Source of the DNA: Halomonas sp.
GTDB lineage: Bacteria > Pseudomonadota > Gammaproteobacteria > Pseudomonadales > Halomonadaceae
Assembly (NCBI RefSeq): GCF_017515565.1
Contig: NZ_JAFWFN010000002.1
Coordinates: 19,588 to 83,587, forward strand
DNA length: 64,000 bases
Direction of reading: 5' to 3'
The notes below the pieces were generated by a model. The model searched no databases. It had not been told where the DNA came from and was given only the letters and a program-made list of their open reading frames with translations. The number at the start of each line of letters is the position of its first letter. Within the stretch, counting starts at the first letter, position 1. Both the position numbers and the translations under genes were made by a program. Positions 40,580-47,907 of the stretch are shown here, one piece after another.

Positions 40580-41683
40580 ATGAAAAAAATGACAAAATTC
40601 GCCCTAACAGGCCTTGCGGCTGGCGTTGCCTTCGCCGCACTCACCACTACCGCTCAGGCACAAGAACAGTGAACAATGACCTCCACTTGGCCCGACAACT
40701 TAGACCTAATTAAAATCGATCAGCACTGGGCTGAGCTAGTTAACCAGCTTGCCGGTGATGAGCTACAAATCAATTTCCGCGCGGGCGGCACGTTAATGCC
40801 TGGTACTGAGGTATTTGATGCCACTGAAACCGGCAGTATCGAAGCCGCGGGCGACTGGCCAGGCTATTGGGCTGGCACAAACCCAGCTTTCTCGCCACTA
40901 GCCACCACTACCAGTTTGTTTAACGCCGTTGACTATATTAACTGGATTCAGCGGTGGGGCGGCCGTGAGCTCTACGAAGAGATCTACGGTCAGTACGACA
41001 TGATGTACCTGCCTTATGCAGCGCTAAATAATGAGTCTGGCTTTATGGGGCGCACCCCCATTGAGAGCCTCGCTGACTTGGAAGGTAAGCGACTGCGCCT
41101 CTCTGGCCGCGACCAGGGCCGTGTACTTGAAGAGCTAGGCGGCTCTCAGGTCACACTCGCTGGTGGCGAAGTGTACCAAGCCATTGAGCGTGGCGTTATC
41201 GATGCTGGCGAGTTCTCAACCCCCGGCGTTGACTACAACGCAGGCTTTGCAGAAGTAGCTGATTACTGGGCCACCCCCGGCTGGCACCAGTCTGCTAGCG
41301 TCTTCGGGGTAATGATTAACATGGACGCGTGGAATGCTCTCACCGAAGAGACCCAGCAGAAGCTAAGAATCGCTGCGGACGCCACCATGGCTTGGTCGCT
41401 GGCGTGGTCTGAGCGTGAATCTACCGATGCAACCCAGAAGTTTATTGACGCGGGCGTCACCATCAACCAGTTCTCAGAAGAGGATCTGGAGCGCATTCAG
41501 CAAATCACCAACGAAGTGATCGTACGCGGCGCGTGTGAGAACACTGATCACGCGAAAGTCTATCACTCCATGGTTAGCTACCTGGAAGACTACGCTAAAT
41601 GGCGCGACATCTCTGCGCCATTCAATATGAGCCGCACCATGGACAACCTGCCCTCATTGGAAGAGATCGAAGCCTGCCTATAA
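40580..41683 (+). pseudogene. TRAP transporter substrate-binding protein, interrupted by in-frame TGA
   Basis: Starting at ATG 40580 the frame encodes a signal peptide (MKKMTKFALTGLAAGVAFAA then LTTTAQAQEQ). It then meets TGA at 40670-40672 and continues in the same frame as T-MTSTWPDNLDLIKIDQHW through a complete DctP-type protein to TAA 41683. The downstream part has GGDWPGYWAG-like and GKRLRLSGRDQGRVLEELGG blocks. In relatives I expect Trp (TGG) at the interrupted position (WTMTSTWP), so TGG to TGA is the simplest lesion. Re-initiation at ATG 40676 would lose the signal peptide, so no functional periplasmic protein is expected. It sits directly before the permease genes. Confidence 0.85.
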
Positions 41684-41746: not shown

Positions 41747-42250
41747 ATGAATGCGATTGCCAAGGCGATCGATGCGATTAACGAGTTATTCGGGCGAATC
41801 GTTGCTCCGTTAATTGCCATCATTACCCTCATTGTTCTTTTTGACATTGCGTCACGCTTTTTCTTTGGGCGTCCCAGCGACTGGGCGTTCGATGTGACCA
41901 AAATGCTCTTTGGCGCCCATTTTATGCTGATGGCTGCCTATGGGTTACGCCACCACGCCCATGTTGAAGTAGACGTCATCAAGCGGTTGCTGTCCCGTAA
42001 GCGCCAAGCATTAGTTGAGGTAATCGGTTATCTGGTTTTCTTTGTTCCCTTTATCTGGATGCTGCTGACCTTCGGCTGGCGCTTCTTTGAACGCTCCTTT
42101 AGCCGTGGTGAAACCACCTATGGCATGGTGTCGATCCCGGTTTACCCCGTTAAGGGCGTCATTGTAGTGGCCGCGGCACTTCTGTTGCTGCAGGCAATTG
42201 CCATTGTACTGCGGGCCATTATGCAAATGCGCGAGGAGAAATCAGTATGA
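41747..42250 (+). CDS. TRAP transporter small permease (DctQ-type)
   Basis: 167 aa with four helices. It contains the family blocks FDIASRFFFGRPSDWAFDVT and YGLRHHAHVEVDVIKRLLS. DctQ pairs with the large DctM subunit in Na+-driven uptake that depends on the periplasmic binding protein. ATG 41747 has GGAG seven bases upstream. It overlaps dctM by 4 bp. The frame is intact although the binding-protein gene upstream is broken. Confidence 0.92.
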   Translation: MNAIAKAIDAINELFGRIVAPLIAIITLIVLFDIASRFFFGRPSDWAFDVTKMLFGAHFMLMAAYGLRHHAHVEVDVIKRLLSRKRQALVEVIGYLVFFVPFIWMLLTFGWRFFERSFSRGETTYGMVSIPVYPVKGVIVVAAALLLLQAIAIVLRAIMQMREEKSV

Positions 42251-43578
42251 ATCTGAGTCCTGAACTACTTGCGCTAGTGATGTTTGGCGGGCTGCTCATC
42301 GGCCTTTTTATGGGTCATCCGCTGGCCTTTGTACTCGGCGGCGTGGCCGTAATCGGCGCGTTTTTAGGCCCGGGTGAGCGCGTACTAGGCACACTGATTA
42401 ACAACATTTTTGGTAATGCCATGGACAACTATGTCCTGGTGGCTATTCCCCTATTCGTATTAATGGCGAGGTTTCTTAACGACTCAGGCGTCACGGAGAA
42501 GATGTTTGATGCCATGCGCCTGCTGCTTGCCAATCTACGGGGTGGCTTGGCGCTCACGGTCGTTATTGTATCGGTGCTGTTGGCAGCGACTACCGGCATT
42601 GTTGGGGCATCCATTGCAGTGATGGGCATGATCGCCTTAGTGCCGATGCTTAAGTATGGCTACAACAAAGAGCTAAGTGCTGGCGTCATTATGGCCAGCG
42701 GCTGCTTAGGCATTCTTATTCCCCCCAGCATCATGCTGATTTTAATGGCTAGCTACTCGCCTGTATCTGTCGGTGCGCTGTTTGCTGGCGCAATGATCCC
42801 GGGTTTAATGCTCGGCGTTATGTACGCACTGTACGTGCTGCTGATCTGCCATTTTAAACCTTCTTACGGCCCGCCAGTGCCCAAGGAGGAGCGTGCGGAA
42901 GTGAGCACCAAGCAGCTGCTTATTATGCTGGGTAAATATGTTGTTCCACCCATGTCGTTAATCTTAGGCGTACTTGGCGCGCTGTTCACCGGCATCGCTA
43001 CTGCCACCGAAGCCTCTGCCATTGGGGTGTTTATCGCCTTTATTCTGTTTATGATTTTTGGCGATCGGAAGATCAAAACCTGCTACAACACGCTGATTGA
43101 AGCAGGCAAGACCACCACCATGGTAATGCTGGTACTGGTAGGGGCCACTGCGTTTACCGGGGTGTTCTCGCGCGGCGGCGGTATGCAGGTAATTCAAGAT
43201 TTGCTGCTAGCCATGCCGGGTGGCACCACCGGCGCGCTGATTATGATGCTGTTCTTAGTGTTTATTCTGGGTATGTTCCTAGACTGGACAGGCATTGTGC
43301 TACTCAGCTTCCCGATTATGCTGCCCATCGTCCAGCAGATGGGTGTTGACCCGCTCTGGTTCGTGGTAATGGTGGCCGTGGTTCTTCAAACCTCGTTCCT
43401 CACCCCGCCGTTTGGCTATGCGCTGTTCTACTTAAAAGGGGTGGCACCGCCAGGGGTAGAGATCGTCGATCTTTACAAAGCGGTTATCCCCTTTGTAGCG
43501 CTGGTTCTACTAGCTTGCTTGTTGATGTCGTTCTTCCCGTGGCTGGTAACCGGGCTACCTAAAATATTGCTAGGGTAA
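42247..43578 (+). CDS. TRAP transporter large permease (DctM-type)
   Basis: 443 aa with about 12 helices. Family blocks include GHPLAFVLGGVAVIGAFLGP, AMDNYVLVAIPLFVLMARFL, ASGCLGILIPPSIMLILMAS, and the C-terminal TSFLTPPFGYALFYLKGVAP. The DctPQM order is standard. From the neighbouring enzymes the substrate is probably a small hydroxylated acid, polyol or sulfonate (inference). Confidence 0.94.
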   Translation: MNLSPELLALVMFGGLLIGLFMGHPLAFVLGGVAVIGAFLGPGERVLGTLINNIFGNAMDNYVLVAIPLFVLMARFLNDSGVTEKMFDAMRLLLANLRGGLALTVVIVSVLLAATTGIVGASIAVMGMIALVPMLKYGYNKELSAGVIMASGCLGILIPPSIMLILMASYSPVSVGALFAGAMIPGLMLGVMYALYVLLICHFKPSYGPPVPKEERAEVSTKQLLIMLGKYVVPPMSLILGVLGALFTGIATATEASAIGVFIAFILFMIFGDRKIKTCYNTLIEAGKTTTMVMLVLVGATAFTGVFSRGGGMQVIQDLLLAMPGGTTGALIMMLFLVFILGMFLDWTGIVLLSFPIMLPIVQQMGVDPLWFVVMVAVVLQTSFLTPPFGYALFYLKGVAPPGVEIVDLYKAVIPFVALVLLACLLMSFFPWLVTGLPKILLG

Positions 43579-43673: not shown

Positions 43674-44675
43674 TTAACGGCGCACGCTGGCCCTGACAAT
43701 GGGCGTCACTGGCAGCACCTTATGCTCACCCGCCACATGGCCGCTGGCAATTTGGGCTAACAGTAATGATGTAGCTTCATCCACCATTGCTTCTATAGGT
43801 TGCTGCACCGTGGTTAGCTGATAGCTTGGCCACGCCGCTACCGGGATATTATCAAACCCCACCACCGCCACATCCTCGGGCACCCGCAAGTCCATTTCCG
43901 CTTTTAACGTGTCGATCACGGCTATTGCCATATGATCATTCGCGGCAAACACCGCATCCGGGTAGACATCGGCCGTGAACAGCTCACGCGTTACTGCTTG
44001 AGCGGTGGCGAACTGATAGTCACCTCGCGCCTCCGCCCAGCATGCTCTTCCATGGGCCGCCAGAGCATCCAGAAACCCTTGCCGACGCTGGCTACTAGTA
44101 GACGATTCGGCTAACCCGGCTATAAAGGCAATCCGCTCGCAGCCACGCTCAATCAAAAACTCACCAACCCAGTAGCCGCCGTGGTAGTTGTCGCTGGCGA
44201 CTTGACTGACGCCTTCAAACGCAACGGTACGATTGATCATCACAACCGGAATACTCCGCGCCACACACTCGCCGGCAAAAGACGAAGAGAGCGTCGCAGA
44301 CAGCATCAAAATACCATCCGCCTGGCTTTGTAAAATTTCAGCCATGACGCTGGCTGACTCTTGCTCATCGCTACTCATAAACAGAAGCAGGTGATAGCCA
44401 TGCTGCTGAAAACGCCGTGACGCGTACTCCAGCATTTGCGCATAAAAGGGGTTATCCAGTTGCGACATAACAACGGCAATTGTGCGTGAGGTGCGGGTGA
44501 TTAATGACCGCGCGATGGCGTTAGGTCGATAGCCTAACTGCTTAGCAGCAGCTAATACTTTCTCTCTGGTTTTCGGTGCGATGCTCGCATTGGGTGAAAA
44601 ACAGCGGCTCACCGCTGATTGCGACACACCGGCAAGCGCCGCCACTTCTTGGGATGTCACCGGCCGTTTTCTCAT
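43674..44675 (-). CDS. LacI-family transcriptional regulator
   Basis: 333 aa. The N-terminal helix-turn-helix reads TSQEVAALAGVSQSAVSRCF, followed by a hinge helix with RPNAIARSLITRTSRTIAVV. The periplasmic-binding-protein-like effector domain includes DNPFYAQMLEY and VAVVGFDNIPVAAWPSYQLT. It is most like the GntR/KdgR-type sugar-acid regulators of the family (impression only). It lies 30 bp downstream of the dehydrogenase gene and probably controls the surrounding locus. ATG 44675 has GAGGT five bases upstream. Confidence 0.9.
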   Translation of the reverse strand: MRKRPVTSQEVAALAGVSQSAVSRCFSPNASIAPKTREKVLAAAKQLGYRPNAIARSLITRTSRTIAVVMSQLDNPFYAQMLEYASRRFQQHGYHLLLFMSSDEQESASVMAEILQSQADGILMLSATLSSSFAGECVARSIPVVMINRTVAFEGVSQVASDNYHGGYWVGEFLIERGCERIAFIAGLAESSTSSQRRQGFLDALAAHGRACWAEARGDYQFATAQAVTRELFTADVYPDAVFAANDHMAIAVIDTLKAEMDLRVPEDVAVVGFDNIPVAAWPSYQLTTVQQPIEAMVDEATSLLLAQIASGHVAGEHKVLPVTPIVRASVRR

Positions 44676-44705
44676 TTACACCTCATATAAAAAACAACAC
44701 CGCCG

Positions 44706-45641
44706 TTAACTGCCTGGCTGCGCTTGCTTGTGGGCAATCAACGCCATCAAACGCCGGTCGCGCCAAGCTTGGCGGCCTGCCAACTGGTTATTGGGCAGGG
44801 CCTCTCGGCGCTGTTCATCCAGCTCTTGCAGTGTTTGCGCCTCCCAGGGGTTATCACCACTGCGTTGAGTATCAACATCGCGATAGAGCGGGCCATAACG
44901 CCCGGCGTAATCCACTACCCCTTTTGGCGCATTGAGGTCTATGGTTTCAAAAGGCCCCATAAATGACCACCGAAGCCCTAGCCCATGCTTTACAGTTTTA
45001 TCCAGATCTTCTGATGATACATAGCCATCGCGAAAAAGCCTTAGCGCCTCGTTTAGTAGCGCCCCCTGCAAGCGATTCAAGATAAAGCCCTGCACCTCTT
45101 TATTAACAAGAATGGGCTCTTGCTCGACTTGGCGCATTAACGCCATGGTGCGCTCAATCACTTGAGCGCTGGTGGCATTCGAGGGCACTACCTCCACCAG
45201 CGGAATTAAATAGGGCGGGTTCACCGGGTGTGCAACTAGGCAGCGCTCTGGATGCTCCAAATGCGCAGTAAACTGTGAGGCAACAATCCCCGACGTCGAG
45301 CTAGCAAGGATTGTATCGGGTTCTGAAGCGGCTTCAAGCTGGGTGTAAATGGCCTGCTTAGCCGCAACATCTTCTGGCCCGCACTCCTGCACATACGCTA
45401 CCCCGGTTAGCGCTTTAGTAAGATCTGCCTGTACGTCAATACGTGCCAAAATAGCCGCTGGCTCCTCGACCAACCCCGCTTTTTGAAGGTCTTCAAGCGA
45501 CTCATTTATCCGGCTAAGCACCGAGTCGAGCTGAAGATGGTCAACATCGTATAAACGTACGGCAAGCCCTGCACGAGCAAACACAATTGCCCACGCCCGG
45601 CCAATCAGCCCTGCCCCTACTACGGCTACGGTCATAGTCAT
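44706..45641 (-). CDS. 3-hydroxyacyl-CoA-dehydrogenase-fold dehydrogenase (lambda-crystallin / L-gulonate 3-dehydrogenase-like)
   Basis: 311 aa. The Rossmann NAD site is TVAVVGAGLIGRAWAIVFAR. A catalytic block follows with SSTSGIVASQFTAHLEHPER and LVAHPVNPPYLIPLVEVVP, the AHPVNPPYxxPLVE pattern of the lambda-crystallin/L-gulonate dehydrogenase subgroup. The C-terminal helical domain has GFILNRLQGALLNEALRLF. Several ATG codons cluster at the start; ATG 45641 has AGGA eight bases upstream. It oxidises a hydroxy acid rather than acyl-CoA if the subgroup assignment holds. Divergent from the HisD-like gene. Confidence 0.85.
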   Translation of the reverse strand: MTMTVAVVGAGLIGRAWAIVFARAGLAVRLYDVDHLQLDSVLSRINESLEDLQKAGLVEEPAAILARIDVQADLTKALTGVAYVQECGPEDVAAKQAIYTQLEAASEPDTILASSTSGIVASQFTAHLEHPERCLVAHPVNPPYLIPLVEVVPSNATSAQVIERTMALMRQVEQEPILVNKEVQGFILNRLQGALLNEALRLFRDGYVSSEDLDKTVKHGLGLRWSFMGPFETIDLNAPKGVVDYAGRYGPLYRDVDTQRSGDNPWEAQTLQELDEQRREALPNNQLAGRQAWRDRRLMALIAHKQAQPGS

Positions 45642-45677
45642 CATTATCATCCTATTTATTGCTGTTATTGCGGATAC

Positions 45678-45848: not shown

Positions 45849-47158
45849 ATGATTCGCCACTTAAAATCCGGTGCCTCCGTTGAGTCTCGTAACGAAGCTG
45901 ATCGCCAAGTGCGGGAAACCGTCGAAAAGACGCTTGCTGATATTGAGGCTAACGGTGACAAAGCCGTGCGCCAGCTATCTGAAAAGTTTGATAACTGGTC
46001 ACCTGATTCTTTTCGTTTGAGCGACGCCGATATCGCCCAGGCGATGAGCCAGGTGTCTGAGCGCGACCTTGAAGATATTCGTTTTGCCCAGGCGCAAATT
46101 CGCCACTTTGCCGAGGCCCAACTCGCCTCAATGCAGCCGGTCGAAATCGAAACTCGCCCAGGCGTCGTGTTAGGCCACAAGCACCTGCCGATCAACTCAG
46201 TGGGCTGCTACATTCCCGGCGGCGCCTACCCTATGGTGGCGTCAGCCCATATGAGCGTGCTGACCGCTAAAGTGGCGGGCGTAAAACGCGTCATTGCCGC
46301 CGCGCCGCCGCACAAAGGCAAGCCTCACCCGGCCATTGTGGCAGCTATGCACCTGGCAGGCGCCGATGAAATCTTAGTGCTGGGTGGTGTTCAAGCAGTA
46401 GGCGCCATGGCGATTGGTACAGACACCATTGAACCTGTCGATATGCTGGTCGGCCCAGGCAACGCCTTTGTGGCCGAAGCCAAACGCCAGCTGTTTGGCC
46501 GTGTCGGCATTGACCTCTTCGCAGGCCCAACGGAAACGCTCGTAATCGCCGATGAGAGTGTCGATGGCCTGCTATGTGCCACTGACCTGTTAGGCCAAGC
46601 CGAACATGGCCCCACCTCCCCTGCTGCCCTGCTAACCAATTCAGAAAAACTCGCCAATGACACCTTGGCCGCTATTGAGGCGCTGCTCGAAAAGCTACCC
46701 ACGGCTGAGATCGCCCGCCAAGCGTGGGACACCCATGGTGAGATCATTGTGTGCGATAGCCATGAAGAGATGCTGCAGGTGGCTAATGAGATGGCCTACG
46801 AGCACGTTCAGGTAATGACCGAAGACCCCGAGCTTTACCTAGAAAAAATGACCAACTACGGCGCGCTGTTTCTTGGCCCGCGCACCAACGTGGCCTACGG
46901 CGATAAAGTTATCGGCACCAACCACACCCTGCCGACCAAAAAAGCCGCCCGCTATACCGGTGTCTTTGGGTGGGTAAATTCCTTAAAACCTGCACCTACC
47001 AGCGCGTGCTGACTGACGAAGCCTCCGCTGAGATTGGTAGCTACTGCTCGCGCCTATGCGCCTTAGAGGGCTTTGCGGGCCATGGCGAGCAGGCGAATGA
47101 GCGGGTTCGTCGTTATGGCAAACGCGATGTCCCTTACGCATCAGCGGTGGATGCATGA
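45849..47158 (+). pseudogene. Histidinol-dehydrogenase-like (HpsN-type) dehydrogenase, frameshifted near the C-terminus
   Basis: The reading frame from ATG 45849 encodes a HisD-fold NAD+-dependent dehydrogenase: [68 protein letters not shown] (Gln and His zinc ligands) and [16 protein letters not shown] (catalytic Glu-His, Asp ligand). Around 46959-46964 the frame is lost: observed ACC GGT GTC TTT, expected ACC GGT GGT CTT TGG GTG GGT AAA. One missing G explains it. The -1 frame then reads [20 protein letters not shown] to TGA 47158, and contains the last zinc ligand in [12 protein letters not shown]. The truncated protein ends at 47012. It is a paralogue outside the his operon, similar to sulfopropanediol dehydrogenase HpsN. 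Confidence 0.85.
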
Positions 47159-47907
47159 CGCTACCGCAAACACCCAGCCTGCAGCTAACCGGAAAGCGGG
47201 CGTTAGTGACGGGGGCAAGCCAAGGGATTGGCTTTGCTTGCGCCTGTGCGCTGGCGCAAGCAGGCGCGGATGTCACCCTGGTTGCCCGCAGTAAAAATAC
47301 GCTAAACGAAGCCGTTAGCGCCTTGCAAGCCGCTGGATACAGCGCTTCTGGGTTGGCGCTGGATGTTAACGACCATGCGACGCTAACCCAGACGTTGGCG
47401 GGGCGTTCGTTTGATATTTTGGTGAATAACGCAGGCACTAACCGTCCCAAACCGCTGCAGGAAACCACGGCAGATGACTATGCAGCGGTGATGGATTTGA
47501 ACGTTAAAGCCACGTACTTTCTCACTCAAACCATCGTTGCCCAGATGCCCAAAGGCGGCAGCGTGATTAATATCTCATCGCAAATGGGCCATGTAGGGGC
47601 CGCTAATCGCAGCCTTTACTGCGCTTCAAAAGCCGCTGTCGAAGGAATGACCCGCGCCATGGCGGTTGAATTAGGCCCGCGTGGGGTTCGCGTCAACACA
47701 ATCTGCCCTACCTTTGTTGAAACTCCCATGACACGGCCGTTTTTTGATCAACCCGGCTTTTTGGAGAGCGTGATCGCCAACATTCCCCTGGGGAGATTAG
47801 GCCAGCTGGAAGACATGATGGGGCCCGTAGTGTTTTTGGCCTCTCCGGCATCTGCACTGGTGACGGGCAGCGCCTTAATGGTGGACGGTGGCTGGACAGC
47901 ACGATAA
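47155..47907 (+). CDS. Short-chain dehydrogenase/reductase (SDR)
   Basis: 250 aa. It has the NAD(P) motif [24 protein letters not shown] ([12 protein letters not shown]), catalytic Ser ([12 protein letters not shown]) and YxxxK ([12 protein letters not shown]), and a C-terminal [12 protein letters not shown]. Its ATG overlaps the true stop of the HisD-like gene (ATGA), so both were one operon. In hps loci SDRs (HpsO/HpsP) interconvert enantiomers of dihydroxypropanesulfonate for HpsN; that role here is only an analogy. The frame is intact. Confidence 0.9.

Follow-up and report, generated by a model that had tools for sequence, protein, structure and literature searches.

The HisD-fold dehydrogenase gene found in the window (the whole stretch of 64,000 nucleotides of Halomonas sp. 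that was analysed) raises two questions: does the break in its reading frame reflect a real loss of function or an error of the draft sequence, and which kind of enzyme did this gene encode? The window lies inside contig C54 of a 3.76-Mb draft assembly of 86 contigs, and the searches placed its closest relatives among Halomonas and Vreelandella genomes. The reading favoured here, with a probability of roughly 0.7, is that, in this Halomonas-group lineage, two independent point lesions have very recently inactivated a TRAP catabolic operon (dctPQM, the HisD-fold dehydrogenase and an SDR).

Organisation of the operon

The features of the locus are the following.

40580..40672, + strand: 5' part of dctP (TRAP solute-binding protein, signal peptide), closed by an in-frame TGA (40670-40672) that is TGG (Trp) in relatives
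40676..41683, + strand: mature part of dctP, after the stop and in frame with the 5' part (PF03480, 132.1 bits)
41747..42250, + strand: dctQ, TRAP small permease, intact (90% identity to G010)
42247..43578, + strand: dctM, TRAP large permease, intact (TIGR00786)
43674..44675, - strand: LacI-type regulator, intact, differing between relatives
44706..45650, - strand: 3-hydroxyacyl-CoA-dehydrogenase-like gene, intact (NF004783), differing between relatives
45849..46961, + strand: HisD-fold dehydrogenase, conserved residues 1-371 (PF00815)
46960..46965, + strand: site of the one-base loss, from DNA alignment with relatives
46962..47012, + strand: 16 out-of-frame residues and premature stop TGA (47010-47012), from reading of the frame
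46988..47158, + strand: conserved tail, now in another frame, carrying the zinc-ligand histidine (GHGEQ) and the stop TGA (47156-47158)
47155..47907, + strand: SDR dehydrogenase, intact, whose start overlaps the old dehydrogenase stop

The gene dctQ has no NCBIfam match, and its name rests on its position and on its counterparts in the reference genomes G010 and G024. The start used for the 3-hydroxyacyl-CoA-dehydrogenase-like gene is 45650, the ORF list giving TTG 45698. No frame break relative to the reference ORFs was found in dctQ, dctM, the SDR gene, the LacI gene or the 3-hydroxyacyl-CoA-dehydrogenase-like gene, the last two being compared with G024 only.

These last two genes, located between dctM and the dehydrogenase (43674-45650), vary among the loci compared (L114, L127, L128, L131). 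G010 and G081 have no space for them at this place, LCM1.Bin22 carries the LacI gene alone of the pair, and G094 has a fragmentary copy of the 3-hydroxyacyl-CoA-dehydrogenase-like gene. Moreover, in the loci of G081 and G094 (L127, L131), the 2 kb or so downstream of the dehydrogenase contain no SDR match above 60% identity.

A frameshift in the dehydrogenase and a nonsense codon in dctP

The 0-frame of the dehydrogenase runs from ATG 45849 to 47012 and encodes 387 aa, namely 371 residues of the HisD family followed by 16 unrelated ones. The conserved C-terminus with GHGEQ is found in the next frame (46988-47155). In DNA alignments, the window is one base shorter than its relatives at about 46960-46965, and the one-base loss near 46962 that the first-pass annotation had proposed is thus confirmed, as is the end of the repaired tail at TGA 47156-47158, which overlaps the SDR ATG at 47155. 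The same annotation had restored a G at this point. The protein reading that it deduced, [19 protein letters not shown], is encoded by all 12 reference loci inspected (10 genomes, L034/L128 and L037/L117 each being taken as one genome), but the gap column for the missing base varies by relative in BLAST, so that the exact base is not assignable.

When the 436-aa ORF of G010 was used in tblastn, its residues 1-371 matched the window with 95% identity in one frame and its residues 373-436 with 98% in the next. Because such identities are found in adjacent frames, this split match is not due to chance. The Gln, His and Asp zinc ligands are encoded in the 0-frame of the window and the C-terminal His in the other one, whereas all four belong to a single reading frame in the relatives whose contig reaches the tail. 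With its frame broken and that of its relatives intact, the dehydrogenase gene looks like a pseudogene in the assembly.

The gene is present at E <= 1e-120 in 12 of the 82 genomes of the genus, own genome included; the operon is thus accessory, which makes its loss plausible. All the 11 other orthologs of the genus have open frames of 439-482 aa, that of the own genome reaching 392 (eight tails were read directly, as well as that of G028 (L009), and G068 and G097 were judged by frame length). A search with residues 1-371 alone as query led to the same picture: the C-terminal histidine is in frame in 79 of 80 loci (the best 80 of 588 relatives), and the remaining one, L104, stops at a contig edge.

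The other lesion, absent from the first-pass annotation, affects dctP. From 40580, this gene encodes a signal peptide (recognized by eye), meets the TGA at 40670-40672 and then encodes the mature protein in the same frame. The stop is replaced by TGG in the four relatives aligned (L114, L034, L117, L035), and the corresponding Trp is visible in 10 of the 12 references, the sequence of L130 ending before it with an open frame and that of L037 (Vreelandella malpeensis) covering only a later part of the gene. Translation may start again at ATG 40676; the binding protein would then be devoid of signal peptide.

Age of the frameshift

The displaced tail has remained highly conserved. Compared with G010, it shows a dS of 1.07, a dN of 0.008 and a dN/dS of 0.0075, synonymous sites being near saturation in several of these gene comparisons. 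When LCM1.Bin22 is also considered, its 56 codons display 8 synonymous and 0 amino-acid changes specific to the window. A tail that evolved neutrally along the whole window branch would be expected to have accumulated about 60-70 replacement changes (half of dS x about 126 sites). Since none is seen, the lesion occurred in the last few per cent of this branch or is an error, in agreement with the initial view that it is either recent or artefactual.

The other genes of the operon do not all follow this pattern. In the SDR gene, 27 amino-acid changes are specific to the window, whereas the G010 and LCM1.Bin22 branches have 5 and 9; the corresponding numbers for dctQ are 13, 4 and 3. No excess on the window branch is found for dctP (6, 8, 2), dctM (5, 7, 9) or the first part of the dehydrogenase gene (12, 7, 9). 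The excess in the SDR is not explained by so recent a lesion and does not fit the simple story.

Inactivation, assembly error or residual function

Accessory catabolic operons are often lost through point lesions, and draft genomes also contain errors of this type. The dehydrogenase gene could therefore be intact in the cell, the draft having dropped one base in it and miscalled another in dctP. This explanation is unlikely but deserves serious attention, as the source is a draft in many contigs and the tail bears no sign of relaxed selection. Furthermore, in the noisy relative G070 (L129; completeness 80%, contamination 4%) the frames of dctP, dctM and the SDR gene are interrupted, probably through assembly noise, which indicates that such noise can resemble the lesions of the window. 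However, two independent errors of different kinds, an indel and a substitution, would be needed in the same operon. The frameshift site is not a long homopolymer, and both lesions are internal to contig C54, away from its ends. Comparison of the window with G010 also argues against it: among 48 non-overlapping reference ORFs matched over 49,260 bases, only dctP and the dehydrogenase are broken, the 46 others being intact. The comparison with G024 gave 13 matched ORFs, four of which were flagged (the dehydrogenase and three antisense ORFs). The reference ORFs of this set were retained without overlap, the longest first, which gave 61 ORFs with a match and six flagged ones: the dehydrogenase with both references, dctP with G010 and three antisense ORFs from L117. 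One of these three had taken the place of the own dctP of G024, and other true genes may have been displaced by the same rule. The unfiltered set of 117 ORF matches included 44 flagged ones, many of which arose from ORFs lying out of frame or antisense over longer genes.

The frequency of such lesions was also estimated by scanning the own genome for six families: PF03480 (13 matches), PF00005 (79), PF13561 (17), PF03466 (29), PF00171 (21) and PF06808 (20), or 179 in total. These scans, which are blunt since the dctP of the window itself scored as stop-free, its TGA being outside the matched stretch, revealed one other internal stop, an in-frame TAA in an ABC exporter gene on C17 (L133, G000:C17:131000-135000). 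A partial ABC match on C32 sits at a contig end. Such lesions are rare, yet present elsewhere, in this assembly, and the chance that a second random one would fall in the operon can be put at about 1/7 (7.3 of 54 kb). Because two unlike lesions fall in one operon, a real and recent inactivation is favoured over base-calling error, without being proven, and the TGA of dctP shifts the balance from such an error toward a real decay of the locus. Both lesions are directly visible in the assembly, each flanked by conserved sequence on its two sides and facing intact frames in relatives, and both are probably present in the organism as well.

It is very improbable that a working product persists, whether by ribosomal or transcriptional slippage, as a split enzyme whose second part is initiated in the tail frame (at GTG 46970 or GTG 47006), or in the 387-aa form itself, should that be sufficient. 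The full conservation of both the N-terminal part and the tail, the near overlap of GTG 47006 with the premature stop and the presence of an A6 run upstream, where both frames are open, would be compatible with it. However, the sites tested include no strict slippery heptamer and only six half-matches, and L005 and L034 carry the same A6 run without any shift, so that nothing appears adapted to A6; programmed -1 frameshifting was rejected on these two grounds for that portion of the overlap which was scanned. After a shift or restart elsewhere, the conserved residues near [14 protein letters not shown] would be altered or missing. In addition, CpHpsN requires a ligand from the C-terminus of its partner (PMC11382572, in extract).

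Putative consequences of the lesions

If the operon has indeed been inactivated, both uptake and oxidation would be affected. The nonsense codon directly following the signal peptide of DctP should abolish uptake. In the dehydrogenase, the one-base loss would replace the last 65 residues (of 436 in relatives) by 16 unrelated ones and remove the C-terminal domain with its zinc-ligand histidine. According to the extract of PMC11382572, this domain of CpHpsN contributes to dimerisation and provides the partner subunit with a histidine that acts as zinc ligand; because it has been lost, the 387-aa product is predicted to be inactive. The tail aligns with the region of CpHpsN bearing His411, the ligand given to the partner subunit (PMC11382572, in extract), which supports the earlier proposal that the frameshift removes the last zinc ligand. 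As translation would now end 143 bases upstream of the SDR start, the coupling through the ATGA overlap should also be lost and the expression of the SDR may drop.

Nature of the dehydrogenase

Residues 1-371 match the PF00815 profile with 423.9 bits (positions 4-362 of 411), which places the protein in this superfamily, and among solved structures it is closest to the (R)-DHPS dehydrogenases 8wwe (E 1.3e-101) and 8v35 (E 3.2e-101). The extract of PMC11382572 lists the zinc ligands of CpHpsN as Gln248, His251 and Asp352, to which the other subunit adds its His411. It also describes His126, located in the motif G-R-Y-A/S-H, as responsible for sulfonate recognition and as setting HpsN apart from HisD (for background on RpHpsN, see PMC11131964, also in extract). 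The corresponding motif of the window is G-A-Y-P-M. The qualification as HpsN-like initially given to the gene is thus appropriate at the level of the fold family but not at that of the HpsN marker, and the Met found at the His126 position led to reject the filing of the gene as HpsN.

The form G-x-[YF]-P-[ML], in which Met or Leu takes the place of His126, is found in all the 86 aligned relatives with at least 60% identity among the matches listed (rows of the own genome excluded; L006 and L037 probably represent the same genome). These relatives also keep the Gln, the His, the Asp and the following Lys, as well as the C-terminal His where the contig reaches it. Among the rows near 50% identity, three of four have the final His of HpsN, and L011 has GRYPI. 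The HisD rows carry GKA[AS]Y (19 of 20) or GLAPL (one), and the own genome has a separate intact HisD. On the basis of these markers, the gene qualifies neither as HpsN nor as HisD. Considering the sequence alone, DHPS could still be a substrate.

The neighbourhood of the gene in relatives includes SDR and LacI matches in many of 82 loci, TRAP genes in Halomonas loci and ABC transporters in the two loci scanned, which suggests a small hydroxylated carbon source. The latter two, both from Alphaproteobacteria, encode ABC transporter parts along with a cupin and Meth_synt_2 (L069) or Lactamase_B (L043). Of their ten neighbour ORFs, only the ATPase of L069 is above the NCBIfam cut-off (UgpC subfamily). 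Deduction of the substrate from these neighbours was abandoned, as the ten ORFs converge on no single compound.

A broader proposal, which we put forward tentatively and at slightly less than even odds, would be that the enzymes with G-x-[YF]-P-[ML] make up an uncharacterised class of their own, the third among HisD-fold dehydrogenases, with members in Halomonadaceae and in numerous Alphaproteobacteria. Their genes often have an SDR and a LacI-type regulator as neighbours, together with a TRAP or sugar-type ABC transporter in the loci examined for it. According to this proposal, these enzymes would oxidise a small hydroxylated compound other than histidinol and DHPS, and two independent hits, in uptake and in oxidation, would just have deprived this strain of the pathway. 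The literature searched mentioned neither this clade nor a comparable lesion in Halomonas. The widespread HisD-like clade lacking the sulfonate histidine of HpsN (L034-L113) is the more interesting part of these results, and this enzyme class deserves biochemical attention. The locus also represents a risk for annotation, which would list a short histidinol dehydrogenase and a DctP lacking its signal peptide, masking a probably dead operon.

Comparison with known systems

The pair of lesions is itself probably real and would correspond to an ordinary recent inactivation of an accessory catabolic operon. Like other recent bacterial pseudogenes of such operons, it associates a frameshift and a nonsense codon in conserved genes with a patchy distribution of the operon, and no notable difference from them was found.

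The dehydrogenase shares with HisD the PF00815 and TIGR00069 families, the fold (by homology) and the zinc ligands. It differs from it by its motif, by DK instead of DY and by an identity of only about 36% to the HisD encoded on C35 of the own genome. In the same way, it shares with HpsN (sulfopropanediol 3-dehydrogenase, which converts R-DHPS to sulfolactate; 8wwe, 8v35) the Gln, His and Asp ligands, the Glu-His catalytic pair, Asp-Lys and, in relatives, the C-terminal His, whereas Met replaces His126, G-A-Y-P-M replaces G-R-Y-A/S-H (PMC11382572, in extract) and the tail is displaced in the window by the frameshift.
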